Positions 7,670-33,475 of a stretch of DNA of 64,000 nucleotides are shown piece after piece. Position numbers and translations under genes: made by a program. Position 1 is the stretch's first letter; each line of letters starts with the position of its first letter. The DNA is taken from NCBI GenBank assembly GCA_009789175.1, contig CP046866.1, positions 124,001 through 188,000 on the forward strand. The letters are read 5' to 3'. The notes under the pieces are model-generated. The model was not told the origin of the DNA, did no database searches, and worked only from the letters and a program-made list of their open reading frames with translations. This DNA is from Salinibaculum litoreum (GTDB lineage Archaea; Halobacteriota; Halobacteria; Halobacteriales; Haloarculaceae).

Positions 7670-8530
7670 ATGACAGACACACTCCTCAACGCGGTGACGG
7701 CGGTACAGTCAGACCTGGTACTGCAGATGACACAGAACGATGCCTACGAGTACATCCACGACGACACCCTGCTGGCGTCGTCGCTGTGGGCGAACATCGC
7801 GCTGGCAGGGCTGGCCATTCTCCTCTTTGTCTACATGGGTCGCAACATTGAGGACCCACGCGCCCAACTCATCTGGGTTGCAACGCTGCTCGTGCCGCTG
7901 GTCTCGATTTCGAGTTACGCGGGGCTCGTCTCGGGGCTGACCGTCGGCTTCCTCGAAATGCCGGCCGGCCACGCACTCGCCGGCGAGGGTGCAATCTTCT
8001 CGCCGTGGGGTCGGTATCTGACGTGGACGTTCTCGACACCCATGATTCTGGCCGCGCTGGGACTGCTTGCCGGGACCAACCGGGCCAAACTGTTCACTGC
8101 AATCACGATGGACATCGGGATGTGCATCACGGGACTGGCAGCAGCGCTGGTCACCGGGTCGCATCTCCTGCGGTGGGTGTTCTACGGTATCAGCTGTGCC
8201 TTCTTCCTGGCCGTCATCTACGTCCTGCTGGTCGAATGGCCAAAGGACGCCGAGGCCACCGGGACTGCGGAGATATTCAACACGCTCAAAGTCCTCACTG
8301 TCGTGTTGTGGCTCGGCTACCCGATTCTGTGGGCGCTTGGCTCGGAGGGCTTTGCCGTGCTCGACGTGGCTATCACCTCCTGGGGCTACTCCGGACTGGA
8401 CATCCTCGCGAAGTACGTCTTCGCCTTCCTCCTGTTGCGCTGGGTTGCCGCAAACGAGGACAGCGTCGCTGACGGTGCGGTGGCGACAGGCGCAAGCGGA
8501 GCCAGTGGCCCGAGGGCAGTCGACGACTGA
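7670..8530 (+). CDS. hop: halorhodopsin, light-driven chloride pump
   Basis: A 286-residue seven-helix microbial rhodopsin in the cytoplasmic membrane. Helix C reads RYLTWTFSTPMILAAL: Thr118, Ser122 and Ala129 occupy the positions of Asp85, Thr89 and Asp96 of bacteriorhodopsin, which is the TSA signature of inward chloride pumps. Arg115 is kept. Lys248 in LDILAKYVFAF is the retinal Schiff-base lysine. No retinal synthesis gene or bat-type regulator is nearby, so this is a stand-alone gene. No clear TATA box lies 25-28 bases upstream; an AATTTTAC about 120 bases upstream suggests a leader. A sensory rhodopsin is unlikely given the full TSA motif. Confidence 0.95.
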   Translation: MTDTLLNAVTAVQSDLVLQMTQNDAYEYIHDDTLLASSLWANIALAGLAILLFVYMGRNIEDPRAQLIWVATLLVPLVSISSYAGLVSGLTVGFLEMPAGHALAGEGAIFSPWGRYLTWTFSTPMILAALGLLAGTNRAKLFTAITMDIGMCITGLAAALVTGSHLLRWVFYGISCAFFLAVIYVLLVEWPKDAEATGTAEIFNTLKVLTVVLWLGYPILWALGSEGFAVLDVAITSWGYSGLDILAKYVFAFLLLRWVAANEDSVADGAVATGASGASGPRAVDD

Positions 8531-21727: not shown

Positions 21728-21933
21728 CGTGGTGGGTCGACTCACCGCGTGACAAAGATAGTTGTGGGGACCGGAGGTGGTTCGTTCGTCTCAGGCGAGC
21801 ACTCCGAAACTGCTGGCATTTCCACCGTCGGGTGCGACATTCCCTGGAGTACGTGTCCCGGCCGGCCACGCCAGAGCACGCTCCGCTGAACCGGCTCGTA
21901 TCCGCTCTCTGGGTGCCCCAGCGACCGTTTTTA

Positions 21934-21973
21934 GGGTGTGATAATTAGCCACCCCATTTTTATGGGAATATTC
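21934..21973 (+). promoter_or_regulatory. promoter and possible operators of the hydrogenase operon
   Basis: TTTTTATG at 21957-21964 is 23-30 bases before the ATG at 21987, giving a leaderless start. GGGTG (21934-21938) and CACCC (21950-21954) form an inverted repeat just upstream of the TATA box. The perfect palindrome GAATATTC (21966-21973) sits between TATA and the expected start of transcription. Either could bind a regulator; none is identified. Confidence 0.55.
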
Positions 21974-21986
21974 ATATCCGCCATAT

Positions 21987-23213
21987 ATGACACAATCCCT
22001 GGCGAATTCGGCGTCATCTCCGACCCGGCGCAACTTCCTGAAACTCGTTGGGACAGCGGCCGCAGGGTCTGTCATCACAGAATACGAGACAGAGATTGCA
22101 GCGGCACTTCAGCGTGCGACAGACGGACCGAAGGAAGTCGTCTGGATACAGGGCCAGACCTGCTCTGCCTGTACTATGTCGACACTTCAGGGTGCCTCAC
22201 CGAGTCTGGAGGAGGCGATTCACGAGTTCCAGCTCGATGTGACGTACCATCCCGAGTTGATGGCGGAGTCGGGCGATGCGGCTATCGAGGCGATGAGCAA
22301 GTCCCCCGATGTCCTCATCGTCGAGGGGGCGATTCCGACCAAGATTCCCTCCGCTGCGACGTTCGGGCGGACCGAAGACGGCCGCCCCAAGCCGGTGTAT
22401 GACTGGGTACAGGAACTGGCCCCAGAGTCCGAGTTCGTGATGGCCGTCGGCACCTGTGCGTCCTACGGTGGCTGGCAGTCGGCACAGAACGGTGCCCCCG
22501 CGGTCATGGACGACCCCGAGGAGGGTCCCTGGCTCGACGACAACGTCACCGGGGCACGCGGGCTCCAGTACACCCACAAGGACGACAGCGGCGGCGCGCT
22601 CGGCCCCGACTTCACCTCGAAGGCGGGGCTGCCGGTCATCAACGTCCCCGGCTGTATGACCCATCCCGACTACGTGCTGTTGACCGTCGCGACGCTGCTC
22701 AACGACGAGGAGCCCGACCTCGACGAGTTCAACCGCCCGAAAGCGTTCTACGGGCCGCTGGTCCACGACCAGTGTTCCCGCCGTGGCTACTTCGACCGCG
22801 GTGAGTTCGTCGACCACGTCGGCGACGGCTCCGGGAAGTGCCTGTACAACGTCGGCTGCAAGGGGCCGTACTGTCACTGTGACGACTCCGTGCGGCTGTG
22901 GAACGACGGAACGAGCGTCTGTCGCAACGTCGGCGCGCCCTGTATCGGCTGTATGGAACCGGGCTTCTGGGACGAGATGACTCCCTTCTACCAGCCTATC
23001 GAACAGCAGGGTCTCGGTCCACTCGACTGGGAGACCATCGGGAAACTCATCGTCGGCGGGACCGTCGCCGGCATCGGTGCCCACGCCGCCCGCAAGGCGA
23101 TGGGCTATGGCAACGGCGACGAACTCGACGAGCAGGCCGTCGAGGATGCCGAGGCACGGGCCGACGGTGGCTGTGGCTGTGGTACGGGCTGTGACTGCAC
23201 GAGTGAGGACTGA
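21987..23213 (+). CDS. uptake [NiFe] hydrogenase, small subunit (Tat-exported)
   Basis: A 408-residue electron-transfer subunit. TRRNFLKLV (residues 13-21) is a Tat signal that would carry the folded heterodimer out of the cell. Proximal cluster ligands: C59 and C62 (QTCSAC), with GTCASYGG and GCMTHPDY. Distal: H260, C263, C285, C291. Medial: C298, C312, C319, C322; C312 aligns with the proline that gives a [3Fe-4S] cluster in most relatives, so a [4Fe-4S] is inferred. The two extra proximal cysteines of oxygen-tolerant enzymes are absent. A C-terminal helix (about 352-374) anchors it. An unusual tail carries Cys at 396, 398, 402 and 404. The gene opens an eleven-gene operon. Confidence 0.95.
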   Translation: MTQSLANSASSPTRRNFLKLVGTAAAGSVITEYETEIAAALQRATDGPKEVVWIQGQTCSACTMSTLQGASPSLEEAIHEFQLDVTYHPELMAESGDAAIEAMSKSPDVLIVEGAIPTKIPSAATFGRTEDGRPKPVYDWVQELAPESEFVMAVGTCASYGGWQSAQNGAPAVMDDPEEGPWLDDNVTGARGLQYTHKDDSGGALGPDFTSKAGLPVINVPGCMTHPDYVLLTVATLLNDEEPDLDEFNRPKAFYGPLVHDQCSRRGYFDRGEFVDHVGDGSGKCLYNVGCKGPYCHCDDSVRLWNDGTSVCRNVGAPCIGCMEPGFWDEMTPFYQPIEQQGLGPLDWETIGKLIVGGTVAGIGAHAARKAMGYGNGDELDEQAVEDAEARADGGCGCGTGCDCTSED

Positions 23214-23216
23214 ACG

Positions 23217-24782
23217 ATGCCAGAGATAGAAATCGACCCCACGACACGTATCGAGGGCCACCACAGTACGACGCTGCACGTCGACGACGGCGTCGTCACG
23301 GAGGCAAAGAGCCACATGGACATGTTCCGCGGGATGGAACTGGTCGTGTTGAACCGACCACCGTCCGACGCCCCGGTGTTCACCCAGCGGGTCTGTGGCG
23401 TCTGCTTTACCGTCCATCGGTACACCTCGCTGCGGGCAATCGAGAACGCCGCTCGCAAGGCGGGCGTCTTCGACGACATCCCGCCGACGGCAAAGCGGAT
23501 GCGCAATCTGATGGAGGCGATGTTCACGCTGTGGAACCACGCCGTCCACACTTTCGCCCTCGTCGGGCCGGACTACTCCTCGGCCGTGATGGGCGAGGAC
23601 GGCGTCGAGCGACTCGACCCGCTTGAGGGGGACGGCTACCTGACTGCACTGGAGATGCAACGCCAGTTGCTCCAGGGCTTCGCGGAGTTTGGCGGGAAGG
23701 CCCCGCACCCGCTGACGTACTCTCCGGGCGGGATGGCCGCGACGCCGACGGCGGAGAAAATCCAGAGCATCCGCGACCAACTCGAAACCGTAAGCGAGTG
23801 GCTCGGGCCGACCGACGCCGTCCCCGAAGTCGTCGAGAACGTCAACAACGGACAAGTCGAGTCCGACTTCGCACAGGGGCTACACGACATCGTGGCGTTG
23901 CTCGTGACGGCCAAGGAAGTCGGTGCCGACGACTTCGGCGTCGGGCCGGGTCGATACTACTCGAACGGCAAGTACTACGACATGGACGGCGGGAAGGAAC
24001 TGGAACCCGGCGTCTATCTCGACGGCAAGCGCCAGCCAAAGAGCAAAGACGAGATTACCTCGGCCATCACCGAGGATGTCTCGCGGGCGTGGTACACCGA
24101 CGACTCCGGCGGCCAGCCCATGGAGGAGACGCCGCCCAAACCCGACCCCGAGAAGGAAGGCGCCTACTCCTGGGGGAAAGCACCCCGCTTCAACGGCAAG
24201 AACATGGAGTGTGGGCCGCTCGCACGCCTCGTGCTGGCCGACAGCGACCCCTTCGACTTGCGGGCGACGCTGGGCGACGACCCGGCGAAATCCAGCACGC
24301 TCAACCGGCTCATCGCCCGCGCACAGGAGTCGCTCTGGCTCCGTGACAAGGCGATGGAGTGGCTGGACGAAATCGAGGCCGGCGGCACCGTCGGCCAGGA
24401 GTGGACCGACGACTTCACCGCCGAGGGTGTCGGCCTCTCGGAGGCTTCCCGTGGCGCAATCTCGCACTGGGTCCGTGTCGAGGACGGCACCATCACCAAC
24501 TACCAGATTATCACGCCGACACTGTGGAATCTCGGACCCCGTGACGACGAGGGGACGCCGAGCATCTTCGAAGGTGCCGTCGAAGGCATGAATGTGCAGG
24601 ATGTCGAGAACCCCATCAACGTCCTGCGGACCGTGCGCTCGTTTGACCCGTGTCTCGCCTGTTCGGTCCACGTCGAGAGTCCCGACGCCAGTTACACCGA
24701 GGAGATAACGCCCGCCTCGCCCGGCACTGCCGTGGGCGGGGGCGAGACGCCCTACGCAGGCCAGCGGACTGACCAACAATGA
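23217..24782 (+). CDS. uptake [NiFe] hydrogenase, large catalytic subunit
   Basis: The 521-residue subunit that holds the Ni-Fe site and splits H2. Nickel ligands are C60 and C63 in RVCGVCFTVH and C479 and C482 in DPCLACSVH. It has the family N-terminus DPTTRIEGHH and no signal peptide, so it is exported together with the small subunit. The maturation protease would cut after His485, removing a 36-residue tail (V486 to Q521), longer than the roughly 15 residues common in group 1 enzymes. It follows the small subunit by 3 bases and overlaps cytochrome b by ATGA. The fourth ligand is Cys, not selenocysteine. Confidence 0.96.
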   Translation: MPEIEIDPTTRIEGHHSTTLHVDDGVVTEAKSHMDMFRGMELVVLNRPPSDAPVFTQRVCGVCFTVHRYTSLRAIENAARKAGVFDDIPPTAKRMRNLMEAMFTLWNHAVHTFALVGPDYSSAVMGEDGVERLDPLEGDGYLTALEMQRQLLQGFAEFGGKAPHPLTYSPGGMAATPTAEKIQSIRDQLETVSEWLGPTDAVPEVVENVNNGQVESDFAQGLHDIVALLVTAKEVGADDFGVGPGRYYSNGKYYDMDGGKELEPGVYLDGKRQPKSKDEITSAITEDVSRAWYTDDSGGQPMEETPPKPDPEKEGAYSWGKAPRFNGKNMECGPLARLVLADSDPFDLRATLGDDPAKSSTLNRLIARAQESLWLRDKAMEWLDEIEAGGTVGQEWTDDFTAEGVGLSEASRGAISHWVRVEDGTITNYQIITPTLWNLGPRDDEGTPSIFEGAVEGMNVQDVENPINVLRTVRSFDPCLACSVHVESPDASYTEEITPASPGTAVGGGETPYAGQRTDQQ

Positions 24783-25642
24783 GCACACCCGAATCCTCGG
24801 CCGGGTCCGGCGGCGGTCCCGACAGCGACAGCGAGTCGACCGGGTCGATCAAGGAGCGTGCGGTGGCGCTGGGACAGGAGATGCTCCGTCCCCCGGAGGA
24901 AGCCGACGACCGATACCGTCGCATTCAGGCGCTGAAAGGCCGCGTCACGGTCGAGCGCCACAGCCTCGGGGCACGTATCGCTCACTGGCTGCAGGCCTTC
25001 TGTATGCTCCTGTTGATGTGGACGGGGTATGCCATTTGGACGGGGAACTACTGGATTCTCGATGTCGCGACCTGGGACGGCTACGCCACCGCCCTGGAAC
25101 TGCACGTCTGGGGTGGCGTCGTCTTGATGCTGTATCTCTTCGTGGTCTTCCCGCTGTATCACGTCTACGTCGACGGCCACCGACAGCTCGCGGAACTGGC
25201 GGACATCCGCGAGGCGTTTCACATCGGGCAGGCCTTCGCCGGACTCAAATCCTACATCCCCGGCTACCACGACGCCCGCCAGACCTACGACGAGGAGGAG
25301 GGCGACTGGGTTGCCTACCACCCGATGCAGAAGACGTTCTTCTGGTGGATTTCCATCTTCTTTGGCGTGCTCGTACTCACCGGCTTTGGCATGTATGCGG
25401 AGATGCGGAGTGACCCGGCCTGGTGGGTCGAACTGCTCGGCTTCCTCGATGGCTATCTCGGGTTCGTCCTGCTCCAACAGATTCACCTGCTGACCTTCTT
25501 CATCGCCGTCGCGATGGTCATCGGCCACGTCTATTTCGCTCTCCTGCCGGGGAACCGAAACGCGCTGAAGTCGATGGTCTTTGGCGACATGGAGGCGTAC
25601 GTACTCGGCGACGGGGAGGACAACGAGCATGACGACGACTGA
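24779..25642 (+). CDS. hydrogenase b-type cytochrome subunit
   Basis: A 287-residue di-heme cytochrome b of the cytochrome b561/Ni-Fe hydrogenase b-type family, which passes electrons from the small subunit to quinone. After a 60-residue acidic cytoplasmic N-terminus come four main membrane segments. Likely heme ligands are His in RHSLGARIAHWLQAF, ELHVWGG, LLQQIHLLTFF and VIGHVYFALL. The loop between segments 2 and 3 (about 135-180) is long. It overlaps the large subunit (4 bases) and the protease gene (14 bases). Its presence makes the enzyme respiratory rather than soluble or ferredoxin-linked. Confidence 0.93.
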   Translation: MSTPESSAGSGGGPDSDSESTGSIKERAVALGQEMLRPPEEADDRYRRIQALKGRVTVERHSLGARIAHWLQAFCMLLLMWTGYAIWTGNYWILDVATWDGYATALELHVWGGVVLMLYLFVVFPLYHVYVDGHRQLAELADIREAFHIGQAFAGLKSYIPGYHDARQTYDEEEGDWVAYHPMQKTFFWWISIFFGVLVLTGFGMYAEMRSDPAWWVELLGFLDGYLGFVLLQQIHLLTFFIAVAMVIGHVYFALLPGNRNALKSMVFGDMEAYVLGDGEDNEHDDD

Positions 25643-26117
25643 CCAGGTGACACCGGAGGGAACGGCCCGGACGCAGGCCGTCGTCGGTGTCGGGAGCATG
25701 GTCATGCGCGACGACGGCGTCGGCTACCACGCCGTCGACCGTTTGCAGGAGCGTGACCTCCCCGAGGGAGCGACCGCAACGCATGCCAGTACAACGGCGT
25801 TTCTTGCCTTGGAGGCGATGAGCGGGACCGACCGCGCTATCGTCGTCGACGCGCTGGACCTCGATGCGTCGCCGGGGACGATTCGGGAGTTCAGACTCGA
25901 CCAACCCGACCAGCATCCGGAGGTGACGATGCACGATTTCAGCTTCAGCGACGCACTCGCGGCCGGTTCCGGCGCGTACGATATTCCCGAGGAGATACTG
26001 CTGGTCGGGGTCGTCCCCGGGACGGTCGAGCCGGGTGTCGAACTGTCAGAGCCGGTCGAGGCCGCACTGCCGGAGCTTCTCGACCGCATCGAACGCAGAC
26101 TGCGGACAGAACAATGA
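25629..26117 (+). CDS. hydrogenase maturation protease
   Basis: A 162-residue cytoplasmic endopeptidase of the HyaD/HycI family that cuts the large subunit tail once nickel is in place. The N-terminal VVGVGSMVMRDDGVGYHAV carries the conserved GxGN-like turn and the first metal-binding Asp; VVDALDLDASPGTI holds the second; MHDFSF gives the His in the usual place. The normal Asn of GNxL is Ser here (GSMV). The ATG at 25629 lies inside the cytochrome b gene end, and the frame before it is a shadow. It overlaps the following microprotein by ATGA. Confidence 0.92.
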   Translation: MTTTDQVTPEGTARTQAVVGVGSMVMRDDGVGYHAVDRLQERDLPEGATATHASTTAFLALEAMSGTDRAIVVDALDLDASPGTIREFRLDQPDQHPEVTMHDFSFSDALAAGSGAYDIPEEILLVGVVPGTVEPGVELSEPVEAALPELLDRIERRLRTEQ

Positions 26118-26290
26118 ACGGAAAATGGTACTGTACGGACTGTGGCGAACAGATTGCGAAAGAAGACATCGACGACCACGAGGCAGAGGGTCACCACGTC
26201 AAGGGCCACTTCCAGCCCGACCGGCTCCTGCCCGGTGACCCGGAGATGATCGGCTCCGGCGTCGATACGGTCGATGGGGGTGAGCACTGA
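26114..26290 (+). CDS. 58-residue zinc-finger-like microprotein in the hydrogenase operon
   Basis: A short gene of unknown function, below common length cut-offs. It is framed by two overlaps: its ATG overlaps the protease stop (ATGA at 26114-26117) and its TGA shares its last base with the hypC ATG at 26290. The 58 residues begin MNGKWYCTDCGEQI: C7-x2-C10, then H22 and H27/H28, fit a C2H2 zinc site, with a further H32. The rest is polar, acidic and without membrane segments. Position between protease and hypC suggests a part in maturation, nickel delivery or regulation; all of this is inference. A zinc-ribbon DNA-binding protein is the alternative. Confidence 0.8.
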   Translation: MNGKWYCTDCGEQIAKEDIDDHEAEGHHVKGHFQPDRLLPGDPEMIGSGVDTVDGGEH

Positions 26291-26625
26291 TGTGTCTCGG
26301 TGTCCCCGGTGAAATCACGGAAATCGACGGCAGCGAGGCGATTGCGGACTTCTGGGGCGTCGAGCGCCGCGTCAGAATCGATGTCGTCGGCGACTCCGTC
26401 GAGGTCGGTGACTACATCCTCAACCACGCGGGCTTTGCGATTCGGAAGATACCCGAGCGCGAAGTCGAGGAGACGATGGCAATCTACGAGTCACTGTTTG
26501 GCGACGACCCCGACGAGGCACTTGACGAAATCGGTGCTGACGACGACGCCGACATCGACATCGGACGGGGCCGACCGCAGACGACAGCCCCCGGTGGAGA
26601 CGCAGGTGAACAGGATGACGACTGA
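26290..26625 (+). CDS. hypC: hydrogenase maturation chaperone HypC
   Basis: HypC binds HypD and carries the Fe(CN)2CO unit to the large subunit precursor. It begins MCLGVPGEI with the essential Cys2, exposed after Met removal, and keeps the small beta-barrel pattern (VGDYILNHAGFAIRKI). At 111 residues it is longer than the usual 75-90 because of an acidic tail. It starts on the last base of the microprotein stop and overlaps hypD by 11 bases. Confidence 0.95.
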   Translation: MCLGVPGEITEIDGSEAIADFWGVERRVRIDVVGDSVEVGDYILNHAGFAIRKIPEREVEETMAIYESLFGDDPDEALDEIGADDDADIDIGRGRPQTTAPGGDAGEQDDD

Positions 26626-27724
26626 CGCCGGCGACCTGAAGTTCCGGGACCCCGAGACCGCCCAGGAGATTGCCGCGGACATCGAGGCCCAGATGGAGCG
26701 CATCGGCGAGTCGATCGAGATCATGCACGTCTGTGGCAGTCACGAGCAGGTCATCGCCAAGTTCGGCCTGCGGTCGATGCTGCCCGACGACCTCTCGGTG
26801 ACGATGGGACCGGGCTGTCCGGTCTGTGTGACGAACATGCCCGAAGTCGACGAGGCCGTCGCGCTGGCCGAGGCCGGCAAGACCGTCGTCACCTACGGCG
26901 ACATGTTCAAAGTACCCGGCAGCGCGCGCAGTCTCGCCGACGCGAAGGCCGACGGAGCAAGCGTCGAGGTCATCTACAGCGCCAGCGAGGCCGTCGAACT
27001 CGCCGAGGACAACCCCGAGGAAGATGTCGTCTTCTTCGCGACGGGCTTCGAGACGACCGCCGCGCCGACCGCGGCCGTCCTGCAGGCCGACCCGCCGGAG
27101 AACTTCTACGTCCTCTCGGCACACAAGTACGTCCCGCCCGCGATGGAGGTCGTCGCGGAGATGCCCGACACCGATGTCGACGCCTTTCTCGCGGCCGGCC
27201 ACGCCGCGACCATCACGGGCTATGGCCTCTTCGAGGACTTTGTCGAGGAGTATGACCTCCCCGTCGTCGTCGGCGGGTTCGAACCGCTGGATGTCCTCTA
27301 CGGCGTCCGTCGCATCCTTGCGTTTATCGAGGCCGGCGAGGGGGGACTCGACAACGCCTACCCCCGGTGTGTCTCTCGTGAGGGCAACACTGCAGCGATG
27401 GGGGCAATCGAGGACGTCTTCACCCGCACCTCCGGGGAGTGGCGGGGTATCGCGGACATCCCCGACGCCAACTTCGAGTTGAACGAGACCTACGCCGACC
27501 ACAGCGCCCGCAAGCAGTTCGATATCGAGGGCGTCGAGGGTGACGCCGACCCGCTCACCGAGGAGTGCATCTGCGGGGATATCATGGCCGGGACGGCCTC
27601 GCCGGAGGGGTGTGCCCTCTTCGGCGAGGAGTGTACGCCACAGAACCCGGTCGGTGCCTGCATGGTCTCGGACGAGGGGACCTGCAAAATCTGGCACGAG
27701 TACGGGGGCAAACCGGACCTATGA
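26615..27724 (+). CDS. hypD: hydrogenase maturation protein HypD
   Basis: HypD (369 residues) is the iron-sulfur scaffold on which the Fe(CN)2CO group is made, with HypC and HypE. It has MHVCGSHE, GPGCPVCVT and the thiol-redox region near GFETTAAPT. The C-terminal cluster cysteines lie in CICGDIMAG, EGCALFGEEC and GACMVSDEGTC. The ATG at 26615 within the end of hypC gives the standard length; the longer frame is a shadow of hypC. It overlaps hypE by ATGA. Confidence 0.95.
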   Translation: MTTDAGDLKFRDPETAQEIAADIEAQMERIGESIEIMHVCGSHEQVIAKFGLRSMLPDDLSVTMGPGCPVCVTNMPEVDEAVALAEAGKTVVTYGDMFKVPGSARSLADAKADGASVEVIYSASEAVELAEDNPEEDVVFFATGFETTAAPTAAVLQADPPENFYVLSAHKYVPPAMEVVAEMPDTDVDAFLAAGHAATITGYGLFEDFVEEYDLPVVVGGFEPLDVLYGVRRILAFIEAGEGGLDNAYPRCVSREGNTAAMGAIEDVFTRTSGEWRGIADIPDANFELNETYADHSARKQFDIEGVEGDADPLTEECICGDIMAGTASPEGCALFGEECTPQNPVGACMVSDEGTCKIWHEYGGKPDL

Positions 27725-28770
27725 GCGACGAACAGTCCCAGGGCGACACCGACGGCGATGTCGTCACAGTCGCCCACGGCTCCGGGTCGGGACGGACGCG
27801 TGATTTTCTCGACGAGCGCGTCGTCCCGCGCTTTGACGGCGATGGCGACCTCCCGGTCGGGCTCTCGGCGCTGGATGACGGGGCGGTCCACAATATCGGC
27901 GACCAGTCCGTCGTCGTCACGACCGACAGCCACGTCGTCTCGCCGCTTTCCTTTCCCGGCGGCGACATCGGTCGGCTGGCCGTCGCGGGCACGGTCAACG
28001 ACCTCGCGGTGATGGGCGCGACCGAACCACTGTCGCTGACCTGCTCGCTGGTCGTCGAAGCCGGGACGCCCGTGGACTTGCTCGATGCCATCCTCGATTC
28101 GATGGAGCGGACCTGCGAGGCGGCTGGCTGTGCCATCACGACCGGCGACACGAAGGTGATGGGCAGCGGCGAGGTCGACGGGGTCGTCATCAACACGACC
28201 GGCGTCGGCCTCGTCCCGACCGGCGAACACGTCCCCGACGCGGGTCTCTCACCGGGCGACAAACTCGTGCTCTCGGGGCCGGTCGGCGACCACGGCATCA
28301 CGCTGCTGGCCGAACGCGAGGGGTTCGACATCGAGGGCGACCTGGAAAGTGATGTCGCGCCGGTCAACGACATCGTGGCGGCCGCACTCGATGCTGGCCA
28401 GGTGACGGCGATGAAAGACCCCACGCGGGGCGGCTTCGCGACTGCGGTAAACGAGATGGTCCGCAAAGCCGAGGTGGGTGCGACGCTCGACGAGCCTGCC
28501 ATCCCGGTCCGAGACCCCGTCGCGTCGACCGGCGAACTGCTCGGTATCGACCCGCTGGATGTCGCAAACGAGGGGAAAGTCCTCTTCGGCGTCGCCAGCG
28601 AGGATGCCGACAGCGTCCTCGATGCCATCCGCGAGGTGCCCGGCGGCGAGGAGGCCGCCCTCGTCGGCGAGGTGACCGACGAGAACCGCGGGCGGGTCGT
28701 CCTCGACACTGGCTTTGGCCAGCGGTACCTCTCGGAACCCGAGGGTGAACAGCTCCCCCGTATCTGTTGA
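27721..28770 (+). CDS. hypE: hydrogenase maturation protein HypE
   Basis: HypE (349 residues) dehydrates the carbamoyl group put on its C-terminal Cys by HypF, giving the thiocyanate that becomes the CN ligand. The protein ends PRIC, so the essential terminal Cys is present. The AIR-synthase-like ATP domains are seen in TVNDLAVMGA, SLVVEAGT and KDPTRGGFATA. It starts at the ATG overlapping hypD; hypA begins 2 bases after its stop. Confidence 0.95.
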   Translation: MSDEQSQGDTDGDVVTVAHGSGSGRTRDFLDERVVPRFDGDGDLPVGLSALDDGAVHNIGDQSVVVTTDSHVVSPLSFPGGDIGRLAVAGTVNDLAVMGATEPLSLTCSLVVEAGTPVDLLDAILDSMERTCEAAGCAITTGDTKVMGSGEVDGVVINTTGVGLVPTGEHVPDAGLSPGDKLVLSGPVGDHGITLLAEREGFDIEGDLESDVAPVNDIVAAALDAGQVTAMKDPTRGGFATAVNEMVRKAEVGATLDEPAIPVRDPVASTGELLGIDPLDVANEGKVLFGVASEDADSVLDAIREVPGGEEAALVGEVTDENRGRVVLDTGFGQRYLSEPEGEQLPRIC

Positions 28771-28772
28771 CC

Positions 28773-29159
28773 ATGCACGAACTCAGCGTCGCCGAGGCGA
28801 TTCTCGACCGCGCACGCGAGGCTGCCGCCGACCACGGCGCGGACAGCGTCGAGACGCTGACGGTCGAACTCGGTGAGGCGACTCACATCAACGCCGACCA
28901 GTTGCGGTTTTGCATCGAGACGGTCGCCGAGGAGACGCCGCTGTCGGCGGTCGAGGTGGCCATCGAGCGCGTCCCGGCGCGGGCCGCGTGTGACTGTGGC
29001 TGGTCGGGCGAGCCGCCGACCTTCGACGGCACGGCGGCCGTCGTCCCCTCGACTCGCTGTCCGGAGTGTGGCTCCGGCACGGAGTTCACGCAGGGCAGGG
29101 AGTGCCGGCTGGCAAGCATCGACGTTCCCGCAGACACACAGACACCGACAGAACGATGA
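28773..29159 (+). CDS. hypA: hydrogenase nickel chaperone HypA
   Basis: HypA (128 residues) binds nickel and passes it to the large subunit with HypB. The ATG at 28773 gives MHELSV, placing the Ni-binding His at position 2; a TTG two codons upstream would spoil this. The zinc site is CDCGWSG and CPECGSG. It overlaps hypB by ATGA (29156-29159). Confidence 0.95.
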   Translation: MHELSVAEAILDRAREAAADHGADSVETLTVELGEATHINADQLRFCIETVAEETPLSAVEVAIERVPARAACDCGWSGEPPTFDGTAAVVPSTRCPECGSGTEFTQGRECRLASIDVPADTQTPTER

Positions 29160-29971
29160 CTCACCACGTATCGACACCGCTGACGCATCGCTCGCCAATC
29201 GACCGCTTGCTCGCCGTGCTATCCAGCGACGACACGGCTCCGGTCGCTCGCGCCCACCGCTTTGGCCACGGCGACGACGAGGATGACCACGGCGACGCCG
29301 ACGACGTGCTGGCCCGCTTCCGCGAGCAGGCGCGGGACCTCCACGAGCGGGTCGTCCACGACCACGATATCTTCGCCGTCGAGTTCCTTGGCGCGACCGG
29401 CAGCGGGAAGACGACACTCGTCGAGCGTCTCATCGAACGGACGCCCGACGACGAGCGGGTCGGTGTCGTCGTCGGTGACGTGGCTGGCGATGACGATGCG
29501 AGCCGCTTTCGTGACCACGGCGTCGCCGTCGCAAACGTCACCACCGGCAAGGAGTGTCACCTCGATCCGGCGATGCTGGGCGAGGCAATCGGCGAGTTCG
29601 ACCTCGCCGCACTCGACCGCCTCTACGTCGAGAACGTCGGGAACATGGTCTGTCCGGCCGACTTCCCGCTCGGGGCACAGGCCCGCGTCCTCGTCGTGAG
29701 TACGACCGAGGGCGACGACGTGGTGCGCAAACACCCGCTGCTGTTCGAAGCCTGTGACGCCGCCGTCATCAACAAGGTCGATGTCGCCGAAGCCGTCGGG
29801 GCCGACGTGTCACGGATGCGCACCGATGTCGCAGAACTCGCCCCCGACATGGCGGTCTTCGAGACGAACGCCCGCGGCGGCCAGGGGGTCGACGACCTCG
29901 CGGCGTTTCTCGCCGACGTTCGGACGGGGGGCCACCACGGCCACGCGGCTCACGAACACGCACACGACTGA
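29156..29971 (+). CDS. hypB: hydrogenase nickel-insertion GTPase HypB
   Basis: HypB (271 residues) is the SIMIBI-class GTPase for nickel insertion. Walker A GATGSGKTTL, the switch region VGDVAGDDDASRF, metal-site NVTTGKECHLD, ENVGNMVCPADF and the base-binding NKVD are all present. The N-terminal Cys-rich nickel motif of many HypB proteins is missing. Instead there is a His/Asp stretch (HGDDEDDHGDADD, about residues 38-50) and a C-terminal tail with His clusters (GGHHGHAAHEHAHD), likely for nickel binding or storage. It overlaps hypA, and hypF follows after 2 bases. Confidence 0.95.
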   Translation: MTHHVSTPLTHRSPIDRLLAVLSSDDTAPVARAHRFGHGDDEDDHGDADDVLARFREQARDLHERVVHDHDIFAVEFLGATGSGKTTLVERLIERTPDDERVGVVVGDVAGDDDASRFRDHGVAVANVTTGKECHLDPAMLGEAIGEFDLAALDRLYVENVGNMVCPADFPLGAQARVLVVSTTEGDDVVRKHPLLFEACDAAVINKVDVAEAVGADVSRMRTDVAELAPDMAVFETNARGGQGVDDLAAFLADVRTGGHHGHAAHEHAHD

Positions 29972-29973
29972 CG

Positions 29974-32247
29974 ATGGGGGACCGGACCCGCGCCGTCGTC
30001 CGCGTGACCGGTGTCGTCCAGGGCGTGGGCTTTCGGCCTTTCGTCTACCGCCGGGCGGACGATACGGGCCTCGACGGGTACGTCCGCAACACCGGCGACG
30101 GCGTCGACGCCGTCTTCGAGGGGCCACGTGGGGCTGTCGAGTCCGTTATCGAAGCCATTCGAACGGACAACCCACCGCTCGCCCGTGTCGAGCGCGTCGA
30201 CGTGGAGTGGACGGAGCCGGCAGGTGTCGACGGCTTCGAGATTCGGGACTCCGACAGCGACGGCGGCGCTGGCGTCCCCGTTCCACCGGACACCGGCGTC
30301 TGCGAGCAGTGTCTCGCCGACATCCGTGGCTCGGACTCACAGTATCACGGCTACTGGGCGACCGCCTGCGTCGACTGCGGCCCCCGGTTCACGGTCGTCC
30401 GGAGCGTTCCCTACGACCGCACACGCACCGCGATGGCAGAGTTCCCGATGTGTGGGGCCTGCCGGGAGCGCTACGAGACGCCGACTGACCGCCGGTATCA
30501 CGCCCAGACCATCGCCTGTCAGTCCTGCGGGCCGACGCTGCGTTTCGAGGATGGTGACAGCGTCGTCGCGACGGAGCAGGACGCGATTCGACACGCCGGG
30601 CAGCGCCTGGCCGACGGCGACCTGCTTGCCATCCGTGGTATCGGCGGCACGCATCTCGTCTGTGACGCGACGGTCCCGGCCGTCGAGAAACTGCGCGAGC
30701 GGACTCGCCGCCCCGCCAAACCCTTCGCGCTCATGGCTCCCTCGGTCGATTCGATCCGGAGTTTCGCCGCCGTCGATGACGATGCCGAGACCGTCCTGAC
30801 CGACATCCGACGGCCTATCGTCCTCCTCGAACGCGAGAGCGGCGCCGACTGGCTGGATACCGTCGCGCCGGGGCTTTCGACCGTCGGTGTCATGCTGCCC
30901 TACGCCGGGGTACACCACCTCCTGTTCGACCACGTCGAGGGGCCGCTGGTGATGACCAGCGCCAACATGCCCGGCGAGCCGATGGTGACGACCGTCGACG
31001 GCATCCGCGACACACTCGGGAGCGTCGTCGATGGCGCACTGGTCCACGACCGCGACATCGTCGCCCGCTGTGACGACAGCGTCGTCCGCGTCGTCGACGG
31101 GGACCGTCGGTTCCTCCGCCGGTCGCGTGGCTGGACACCCGAAGCGTTGCCCAACCCCGCTGCCGAGGACGGAACTGCCCCCGTACTGGCTGTCGGGCCG
31201 GAGCGGGACGCGACCGTCGCCGTCGCCGACGCCGACCGCGTCGTCCTCTCCCAGCACGTCGGCGACGTGGACGACCCGGCGACGCTCGCGTTCCACCGCG
31301 AGGCCGTTGCCCACCTGACCGACCTGACCGGTATCGACCCATCTGTCGTTGCCTGTGACATGCACCCCGACTTCCTGACGCGTGCCGAAGCCGAACGCGA
31401 CGCCGAGGATGGTCTCGACGGCCCGGTCACCGTCCAGCACCACCACGCACACGCCGCCGCGCTGTTGGCCGAACACGACCGCTCGCGGGCCGTCGTCGTG
31501 ACTGCCGACGGGACCGGCTACGGACCTGACGGAACTGTCTGGGGTGGGGAGGTACTCGACGCGACGCTTGCGGACTTCGAGCGCGTCGGCGGACTCGACT
31601 CGTTCCCGCTCCCGGGCGGTGAGGCCGCCGTAGAGCACCCCGCCCGGACGCTCGCTGGCCTGCTGGCGGATGCGGAGACGGTCGGAGACCGTCTCCTCGC
31701 GACGGGTGCCGTGGAGTCACGCTCGGAGGCACGCGTGGTCCGCCAGCAGGCCCGCCAGGGCGTGAACACACCGGAGACGAGCAGCGCCGGCCGCTTTCTC
31801 GACGGGGTGGCGGCTCTCGTCGGGGCCTGTGACCGCCGTCGCTACGAGGGCGAACCCGCACAGCGACTGGAAGCACTCGCACGTGAGGGGAGCGTCCGCG
31901 AACTGTCGGTCCCGTTCGGGGAGTGCGACGGTGACCGCGTCGTGGCGACCGGGGAACTGCTGCGGGCTCTCGATTCCTTGCCGGCACCGCCAGCCGATGT
32001 CGCGGCGACCGCACAGGATGCGCTCGCACGCGGCCTCGGCGAGATTGCCGTCGAGACGGCGAACGAGCGTGGGGTCGATGCGGTCGGGTTCACCGGTGGC
32101 GTCGCCTACAACGGTGCCATCTCCCGACGCTTTCGAGAACTCGTCGAATCGGCCGGACTGGACGTACTTTCCCCTGACAGAGTCCCGCCGGGTGATGGTG
32201 GGATAGCATACGGACAGGCGGTCGTTGCGACTGCGAGACAGGACTGA
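29974..32247 (+). CDS. hypF: carbamoyltransferase HypF
   Basis: HypF (757 residues) makes the CN precursor from carbamoyl phosphate and loads it on HypE. The domains in order are: acylphosphatase (1-90, VVQGVGFRPFVYR); two zinc-finger modules (CEQC with CVDCGPRF, then CGAC with CQSCGPTL); a YrdC-like domain (AIRGIGGTHLVC, residues about 200-370); and a Kae1/TobZ-like domain with HHHAHAAALLAEH (metal/ATP site). All parts appear intact. It is the last gene of the operon and is convergent with the NADH dehydrogenase gene 61 bases on. Confidence 0.96.
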   Translation: MGDRTRAVVRVTGVVQGVGFRPFVYRRADDTGLDGYVRNTGDGVDAVFEGPRGAVESVIEAIRTDNPPLARVERVDVEWTEPAGVDGFEIRDSDSDGGAGVPVPPDTGVCEQCLADIRGSDSQYHGYWATACVDCGPRFTVVRSVPYDRTRTAMAEFPMCGACRERYETPTDRRYHAQTIACQSCGPTLRFEDGDSVVATEQDAIRHAGQRLADGDLLAIRGIGGTHLVCDATVPAVEKLRERTRRPAKPFALMAPSVDSIRSFAAVDDDAETVLTDIRRPIVLLERESGADWLDTVAPGLSTVGVMLPYAGVHHLLFDHVEGPLVMTSANMPGEPMVTTVDGIRDTLGSVVDGALVHDRDIVARCDDSVVRVVDGDRRFLRRSRGWTPEALPNPAAEDGTAPVLAVGPERDATVAVADADRVVLSQHVGDVDDPATLAFHREAVAHLTDLTGIDPSVVACDMHPDFLTRAEAERDAEDGLDGPVTVQHHHAHAAALLAEHDRSRAVVVTADGTGYGPDGTVWGGEVLDATLADFERVGGLDSFPLPGGEAAVEHPARTLAGLLADAETVGDRLLATGAVESRSEARVVRQQARQGVNTPETSSAGRFLDGVAALVGACDRRRYEGEPAQRLEALAREGSVRELSVPFGECDGDRVVATGELLRALDSLPAPPADVAATAQDALARGLGEIAVETANERGVDAVGFTGGVAYNGAISRRFRELVESAGLDVLSPDRVPPGDGGIAYGQAVVATARQD

Positions 32248-32308
32248 GAGAAAAACAGCTTGTGGCAGGGAGTGCGGGCCGGGGTTCCCTGGGACGAACG
32301 TGTCGTCG

Positions 32309-33475
32309 TTACATGTCCGACCAGGCGCTCACGGCCCGGCCGGTGCTGTCGACGTCTTTGATCCAGCGGGCGGCAATCGCCTTCTTGAGGAACTTCGCGG
32401 GGAAGCCACCGAAGGTCTCGAAGACGGGGACGACGTACACGTCGTGGGCAACAGCGGATTCGCCGACCGAGACGACCGTCCCTTTGTCCTTGTACTTCCA
32501 CTTCTTGAGTGGCTGCCCGCGGATTTCGCGGGCGATGTTCTTGCCGGCGACTTCGGCGGCCTGCCAGGCGGCCTGTGCGGTCGGCGGGGCAGGGTCGTCA
32601 CCGGGCTGGTCGACGAGTGCGCAGTCGCCGATTGCGAACACGCGGGGGTCCGTCGTCTGGAAGTCCTGTTCCGCGTGCAGGCGGTTCGAGCGGTCGTCCT
32701 TGTCGACACCGGTCTTCTCGGCTGCCTCGCGGCCGGTGATACCGCCGGTCCAGACGAGCACGTCGTAATCGAGTTCCGTCTCGTCACCGATGTAGACGGT
32801 CTCCTCGTCGACTTCGCCGATGAACTCCCCGCACATGATGTTGACACCGCGGGCCTCCAGGCGGTCCCGGAGTGCGCCCTGCAGGTCCGGGTCGCTGTTG
32901 GGCAGGACCTCGTCCAGCCCTTCAACGAGGTGGATGTCGATGGGGTAGTTCTCCTCATCGCGAAGCTCTGCGACTTCGCCAGCGGTCTGGATACCCGAGA
33001 GGCCGGCCCCGCCGATAACGACCTGTACGGGGTCGCTCGGAGTCGCTGCTTCGGCCTGCTGGGTGATGTCCTCGTGGATGCCCAGCGCGTCGTCGAGACC
33101 CTTGAGGGTGTGTGAGTACTTTTCTAGGCCCTCGATGCCGAAGAAGGCAGTTTGGGAACCGATACCAATCAGCACGTAATCGTAGTCAACCGTCTCTCCG
33201 TCGTCCAGATGGACCGTCCGTTCGTCGGTGTCGACCTCGGTGACTTCGGCCTGGATAAACTCCGTGTCCCGGGACTTGATGTCATCTACCGGGATGGAAA
33301 TTTTCTCCTTGACGCTCGGGTCCCGGATGCAGCGGTGGGACTCGTGGAGAACCAGATGGTAGTCGTGTTCTGCAATCCAGGTCACGTCTGCTTCCCCGTC
33401 CAGTGCCGATTCGAGGCTCTTGATAGTGCCCGCCCCGGCGTACCCCGAACCGAGGACGACAACGTTCTCCGTCAT
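32309..33475 (-). CDS. type II NADH dehydrogenase (FAD-dependent)
   Basis: A 388-residue flavoprotein of the NDH-2 family that oxidises NADH and reduces quinone on the inner membrane face without pumping. FAD-binding GSGYAG at the start, the NAD-site GGAGLSGIQTAGEVAEL, and the second FAD motif FAIGDCALVDQ are clear. The C-terminal region (FPAKFLKKAIAARWIKDV) looks like the membrane-binding end. A sulfide:quinone reductase is less likely, since I see no matching redox Cys pair. A TATA-like TTGTATC lies about 30 bases upstream. Confidence 0.85.
   Translation of the reverse strand: MTENVVVLGSGYAGAGTIKSLESALDGEADVTWIAEHDYHLVLHESHRCIRDPSVKEKISIPVDDIKSRDTEFIQAEVTEVDTDERTVHLDDGETVDYDYVLIGIGSQTAFFGIEGLEKYSHTLKGLDDALGIHEDITQQAEAATPSDPVQVVIGGAGLSGIQTAGEVAELRDEENYPIDIHLVEGLDEVLPNSDPDLQGALRDRLEARGVNIMCGEFIGEVDEETVYIGDETELDYDVLVWTGGITGREAAEKTGVDKDDRSNRLHAEQDFQTTDPRVFAIGDCALVDQPGDDPAPPTAQAAWQAAEVAGKNIAREIRGQPLKKWKYKDKGTVVSVGESAVAHDVYVVPVFETFGGFPAKFLKKAIAARWIKDVDSTGRAVSAWSDM

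Follow-up and report, generated by a model that had tools for sequence, protein, structure and literature searches.

Described haloarchaeal hydrogenases

The use of H2 by haloarchaea has so far been tied to sulfur respiration. Two reports, PMC6176080 and PMC5437934, bear directly on the locus described here. Sorokin 2018 (PMC6176080) described a haloarchaeal hyd/hyp module, whose enzymes, relatives of the one studied here, were assigned to group 1a, and regarded it as suited to lateral transfer. Such modules occur in Natrarchaeobaculum AArc1 and AArc-Mg, Halodesulfurarchaeum and Natronobacterium gregoryi, and H2-dependent growth of carriers has been reported (PMC6176080, PMC5437934). The H2-using haloarchaea studied so far employ CISM (Mo-enzyme) reductases as acceptors, and the AArc strains take up H2 only anaerobically, with no aerobic use (PMC6176080).

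The module in Salinibaculum resembles the published ones in its subunits, its protease, its adjacent hyp genes and its branch in the tree, with hydABC, hydD and hypA-F side by side, as in the module of PMC6176080. We therefore rejected the possibility of a novel system, since the haloarchaeal module is already in print (PMC6176080). There are differences: our host has no Mo-enzyme reductase, the published descriptions name no small zinc-finger gene in their available portions (PMC6176080, PMC5437934), and HydB is only 59% identical to the plasmid enzyme of Natrarchaeobaculum sulfurireducens (G182), whereas our block lies on a chromosome-sized contig.

Gene content of the block

The window, the whole 64-kb stretch of DNA analysed, covers positions 124001-188000 of a 3.3-Mb contig in a genome of 3.73 Mb that is 99.87% complete. 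The eleven complete open reading frames that the first-pass annotation had placed in one direction on the plus strand, at 21987-32247, proved exact to the base, with no gap above 3 bases. Pfam and NCBIfam profiles identified ten of the eleven genes as a complete [NiFe] hydrogenase set. The features are as follows, in gene order.

21746-21986, plus strand: upstream intergenic region; the left insertion boundary lies between hydA and the point where the left-hand gene starts (21745, minus strand)
21987-23213, plus strand: hydA, [NiFe] hydrogenase small subunit (TIGR00391, 192 bits, cut-off 179.5; PF14720; PF01058)
23217-24782, plus strand: hydB, large NiFe subunit (PF00374, 302 bits)
24779-25642, plus strand: hydC, membrane cytochrome b of the b561/HupC type (PF01292, 57 bits, cut-off 30.1; TIGR02125 below its cut-off)
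25629-26117, plus strand: hydD, HydB C-terminal maturation protease (PF01750; TIGR00072, 119 bits)
26114-26290, plus strand: hydrogenase-linked 58-aa C2H2 zinc-finger-like protein (C7, C10, H22, H27; no family at cut-off)
26290-26625, plus strand: hypC, chaperone starting M-C (TIGR00074, 66 bits; PF01455)
26615-27724, plus strand: hypD, Fe(CN)2CO assembly (TIGR00075, 410 bits)
27721-28770, plus strand: hypE, with C-terminal Cys (...PRIC) (TIGR02124, 360 bits)
28773-29159, plus strand: hypA, nickel chaperone (PF01155, 88 bits)
29156-29971, plus strand: hypB, nickel GTPase with His-rich C-terminus (PF02492, 73 bits)
29974-32247, plus strand: hypF, full-length carbamoyltransferase (TIGR00143, 759 bits, positions 1-740 of 741)
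32248-32308, no strand: right insertion boundary, between hypF and an ndh-like gene (32309-33475, minus strand)

Gaps separate hydA/hydB (3 bases), hypE/hypA (2) and hypB/hypF (2). All other junctions overlap: hydB/cytochrome b (4), cytochrome b/hydD (14), hydD/58-aa gene (4), 58-aa gene/hypC (1), hypC/hypD (11), hypD/hypE (4) and hypA/hypB (4). The arrangement is not due to chance, as the identical 11-gene order recurs in all seven of the closest loci fetched and in Salinibaculum sp. KK48 (G391, NZ_CP129992.1). The window's genome contains a single PF00374 gene, matched in two pieces within one frame.

Just 5′ of hydA (21953-21973), the inverted repeat CCCATTTTTATGGG (21953-21966) overlaps the palindrome GAATATTC; neither element was seen upstream of hydA in relatives. 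Inspection of nine upstream regions by eye revealed no conserved motif. The promoter region is not conserved, as DNA homology with the KK48 block begins only at 22021. With respect to the halorhodopsin attributed to the host in the first-pass annotation, a rhodopsin gene (PF01036) is present at 7670-8530, and a helix with the motif ...TFSTP... suggests a halorhodopsin. This halorhodopsin-like gene, 13 kb from the block, is unrelated to it and not a part of it.

Subunits and classification of the hydrogenase

Protein families, ligand residues and the HydB tree agree with the earlier annotation of a complete respiratory uptake hydrogenase. Judged from its sequence, the product of the block is a [NiFe] hydrogenase of group 1 (membrane-bound, respiratory) in which the expected ligands are present. 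HydA has a Tat-type signal (RRNFLKLV), a C-terminal hydrophobic segment and a Cys-rich tail (C396, C398, C402, C404) found only in most of its close relatives. Its cluster ligands are C59, C62, C157, C223, H260, C263, C285, C291, C298, C312, C319 and C322; each of the 12 positions is kept in 19-20 of the 20 aligned rows, G319 and G089 being excluded. The proximal and distal ligands are the usual set. At the medial cluster, Cys312 replaces a proline of the Desulfovibrio desulfuricans enzyme (alignment to 1e3d_A) and Cys298 lies two residues before the usual ligand, both being kept in 19 of the 20 rows. As four medial Cys are found in other archaeal relatives as well, a [4Fe-4S] medial cluster is predicted. 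We considered this cluster as a haloarchaeal novelty and rejected the idea, as it is common to other archaeal group 1 enzymes. The O2-tolerant (group 1d) design is characterized by two extra Cys at the proximal cluster (6-Cys). The proximal site of the window's HydA (CSAC and GTCASYGG, alignment to 1e3d_A) has no supernumerary Cys, which sets the enzyme apart from the known O2-tolerant hydrogenases of 6-Cys type.

HydB contains the motifs R-V-C-G-V-C and D-P-C-L-A-C-S-V-H, with C60, C63, C479, C482 and H485 invariant in 12 aligned sequences, and the 36-aa C-terminal extension after the latter motif is expected to be cut off during maturation. In cytochrome b, H69, H109, H181, H236 and H250 are kept in 13 of 13 sequences.

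Among the relatives, HydA of genomes G319 (L044, 3216-4182) and G089 (L047, 3305-4316) retains the proximal half, while the distal/medial half is lost and replaced by an open Arg/Ser/Gly-rich tail; the adjacent HydB is intact. These proteins represent either decay or a reduced small subunit. In the HydA of G347 (L039), proximal Cys62 is changed to Asp (CSGD), which we take to be reminiscent of high-affinity actinobacterial-type enzymes. Stops were reported inside HydB of G124 and G069, yet full open frames were obtained, and the stops are therefore probably located beyond the end of the gene.

The first-pass annotation had proposed a tree of the large subunit. We built one with 51 HydB-type sequences, 31 of them haloarchaeal, omitting G001 (one stop in the extracted frame). 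The window HydB falls into a haloarchaeal branch beside archaeal enzymes: 30 of the 31 haloarchaeal sequences, all but G129, group with the archaeal MAG 128-326 and G554, and the f15 genomes adjoin this group. The f15 genomes are probably Archaeoglobi, because a grouping of haloarchaeal enzymes with Archaeoglobi has been reported (PMC6176080). HydB of f15 and G554 is 41-47% identical to ours, and these enzymes likewise have four medial-cluster Cys, but in haloarchaea and MAG 128-326 one of these Cys stands two positions closer to the N-terminus (CDD). The best PDB matches, and thus the best solved relatives, of HydB are the periplasmic [NiFeSe] and [NiFe] group 1 enzymes of Desulfovibrio (5jsu, 1e3d). 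Unlike the former, the window enzyme has Cys and not Sec in its active site, and the haloarchaeal clade sits apart from the two Desulfovibrio references. The order small subunit, large subunit, cytochrome b and protease is shared with HoxKGZ, the membrane-bound group 1d hydrogenase of Cupriavidus necator. In contrast to that system, HydA here has no extra proximal Cys, and a C2H2 protein gene occupies the place where C. necator has rubredoxin and other helper genes.

A small C2H2 protein linked to the hydrogenase

The 58-aa protein is the sole product of the eleven genes without a Pfam or NCBIfam family at cut-off. Strong matches (E < 1e-10) were found in 26 of 391 genomes, namely in 26 of 29 hydrogenase carriers and in none of the 362 others, and by coordinates they lie within ~3 kb of hydB. 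The carriers without a strong match are G319, G089 and G129. C7, C10, H22 and H27 are invariant in 19 sequences. A structure model displays a beta-beta-alpha core at residues 3-24, with a mean pLDDT of 69.9 (~80-89 in residues 1-30). No account of the protein was found in the open-licence literature, as far as its text was available; a query for haloarchaea, hydrogenase and zinc finger matched only a paper on a Thermococcus regulator. We propose the protein as a candidate new hydrogenase accessory factor, which may act in maturation, protection or regulation.

Distribution and movement of the block

Among the 391 Halobacteria genomes sampled, 42 had HydB matches at E ≤ 0.001. Group-1-like HydB (E ≤ 2.1e-95) was patchily distributed over 29 of them, and the 13 genomes with only weak matches are read by us as carrying other hydrogenase groups. 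According to the first-pass annotation, the operon would have been ordinary had most haloarchaea carried it at one shared locus; this is not what we found. HydB is 74-76% identical in six other genomes of the 391 and 66% in G347. Taking the sample together with KK48 and the named loci, the hosts of the close clade are Salinibaculum KK48, Halovenus salina, H. aranensis, Halobiforma haloterrestris, Natronomonas LN261, Haloplanus ruber, Halorussus halobius, Halonotius aquaticus and Halohasta salina, and host families are intermingled in the HydB tree. Three genomes, G069, G178 and G258 (L040, L045 and L041 plus second copies), have two group 1 loci each, one of which is without hyp genes in the stretch examined. 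No relative was present among viral contigs, and viral carriage was rejected.

In KK48 the block lies at 201294-211518, with ~80% DNA identity to window positions 22021-32234. The genes that flank the block in the window are adjacent in KK48 without it: homology stops at 1557848 and restarts at 1558103, resuming at window position 32302. Conversely, in the window's genome the genes that flank the KK48 block lie side by side without it (2078784 and 2079018). Comparison of the flanks with KK48 places the insertion boundaries at 21746-21986 and 32248-32308, where the first-pass annotation had proposed to look for them (near 21.7 and 32.3 kb). Its suggestion that the unit could move as one block is supported by these reciprocal empty sites within a genus and by a comparison of 11 loci, in which 54 of 55 pairs have no flanking gene in common; a flanking gene is shared only between two Halovenus species (flanks of 1.1-9 kb, no control operon). 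The module and the idea of its transfer had already been published (PMC6176080). Neither an element nor a target duplication was noticed at the boundaries, and they have no long repeat in common, the longest shared direct repeat being 8 bases; no tRNA is found within the 64-kb window. The empty KK48 site (L064, 1557848-1558103) is intergenic and rich in GC palindromic sequence, and may be a fragile site.

The window and KK48 HydB proteins are sisters in the tree (support 1.0). Divergence at fourfold sites between the two genomes was 0.43 for the block (687/1581; 58-aa gene left out), compared with 0.48 (645/1339) for the flanks of the window site and 0.43 (664/1539) for those of the KK48 site, counted with rtcB lacking a match in the stretch compared. 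As block and flanks are equally diverged, the block most likely predates the split of the Salinibaculum species and was relocated whole. Independent acquisition of the block by the two lineages from close donors would also produce reciprocal empty sites, and would suit the patchy distribution and mixed host families. Nevertheless, we regard this as rather unlikely, with the block and its flanks alike in fourfold divergence (hypF is more diverged, 0.56) and the two HydB proteins each other's closest.

Electron acceptor

No match to PF00384 (molybdopterin oxidoreductase) was found in the window's genome (G000), KK48, G302, G300, G066 or G124, and so the CISM reductases of the published H2 users cannot be the acceptor in these six hosts. 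All six carriers possess PF00115 heme-copper oxidases. With no Mo-enzyme terminal reductase in the window's host, the likely electron sink there is O2 via these oxidases. Counting against this are the lack of aerobic H2 use in the AArc strains (PMC6176080) and the HydA without the two extra proximal Cys. Aerobic H2 use by haloarchaea was not found in the open-licence literature, including PMC9765009, within the text available.

PF00384 was present in 44 of 50 chosen genomes, and its absence in 6 of 30 carriers and 0 of 20 non-carriers (the first non-matching genomes of the same families listed in the HydB search) gave a first hint that its loss is enriched in carriers. This was not upheld class-wide, where 354 of 391 Halobacteria genomes have PF00384 and 37 lack any (5/29 carriers vs 32/362 others, p=0.18). 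Among the closest eight carriers the ratio was 3/8 vs 34/383 (p=0.03), a subset picked after the data had been seen.

Proposed function and alternatives

We consider it quite likely that the block is a self-contained group 1 uptake-hydrogenase hyd-hyp cassette, inherited as one block that changed place, with O2 as the likely sink. Following what is known of the family, HydA and HydB would mature inside the cell, HypCDEF building the Fe(CN)2CO centre and HypAB inserting nickel, and HydD would trim HydB after His485. The folded subunits would be exported through Tat and then sit on cytochrome b at the outer side of the membrane. H2 would be split at the NiFe site, with electrons passing through three Fe-S clusters and the haems to menaquinone and, in the window's host, through heme-copper oxidases to O2. 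The cassette would have been inherited and moved as a unit, its position changing between the two Salinibaculum species.

The enzyme might instead run anaerobically on a non-molybdenum acceptor such as fumarate, or on sulfur through a pathway that does not involve CISM. We consider this less likely than O2: the proximal cluster is the standard 4-Cys type, an O2-sensitive architecture, and published relatives take up H2 only anaerobically (PMC6176080), but the genome has no PF00384 protein. The first-pass annotation had added that the unit looks functional. All eleven frames are open and the ligands intact, but an intact cluster is no proof of H2 use, because strain HSR6 does not use H2 although its cluster is identical to the one in HTSR1, which does (PMC5437934). 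A cluster that is silent or decaying in the window's host would agree with HSR6 and with the HydA halves lost in G319 and G089; given the intact window genes, and silent-site change far above protein change between species, this is improbable. Even less probable is an enzyme that mostly evolves H2 as an anoxic redox valve. [NiFe] hydrogenases are in principle reversible, but the combination of a Tat-exported small subunit and a b-type cytochrome is that of uptake enzymes, and relatives grow on H2 (PMC6176080).

Compared with PMC6176080 and PMC5437934, what is added here is movement between defined sites, carriers without Mo-enzymes and a linked small protein, part of which may already be contained in those papers. 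The reciprocal empty sites give the published transfer idea a concrete form. In the carriers without molybdopterin oxidoreductase (the two Salinibaculum genomes, G302, G300, G066 and G124) the electrons must go to another acceptor, so that aerobic use of H2 in brines can be tested directly. As a tentative idea, to which we give a minor chance of being correct, the moving cassette may allow aerobic haloarchaea devoid of Mo respiratory enzymes to respire H2 in salt-saturated brine, with O2 as acceptor and an enzyme of O2-sensitive type, the C2H2 protein being a new maturation or protection factor in a role that rubredoxin may play in aerobic bacteria.
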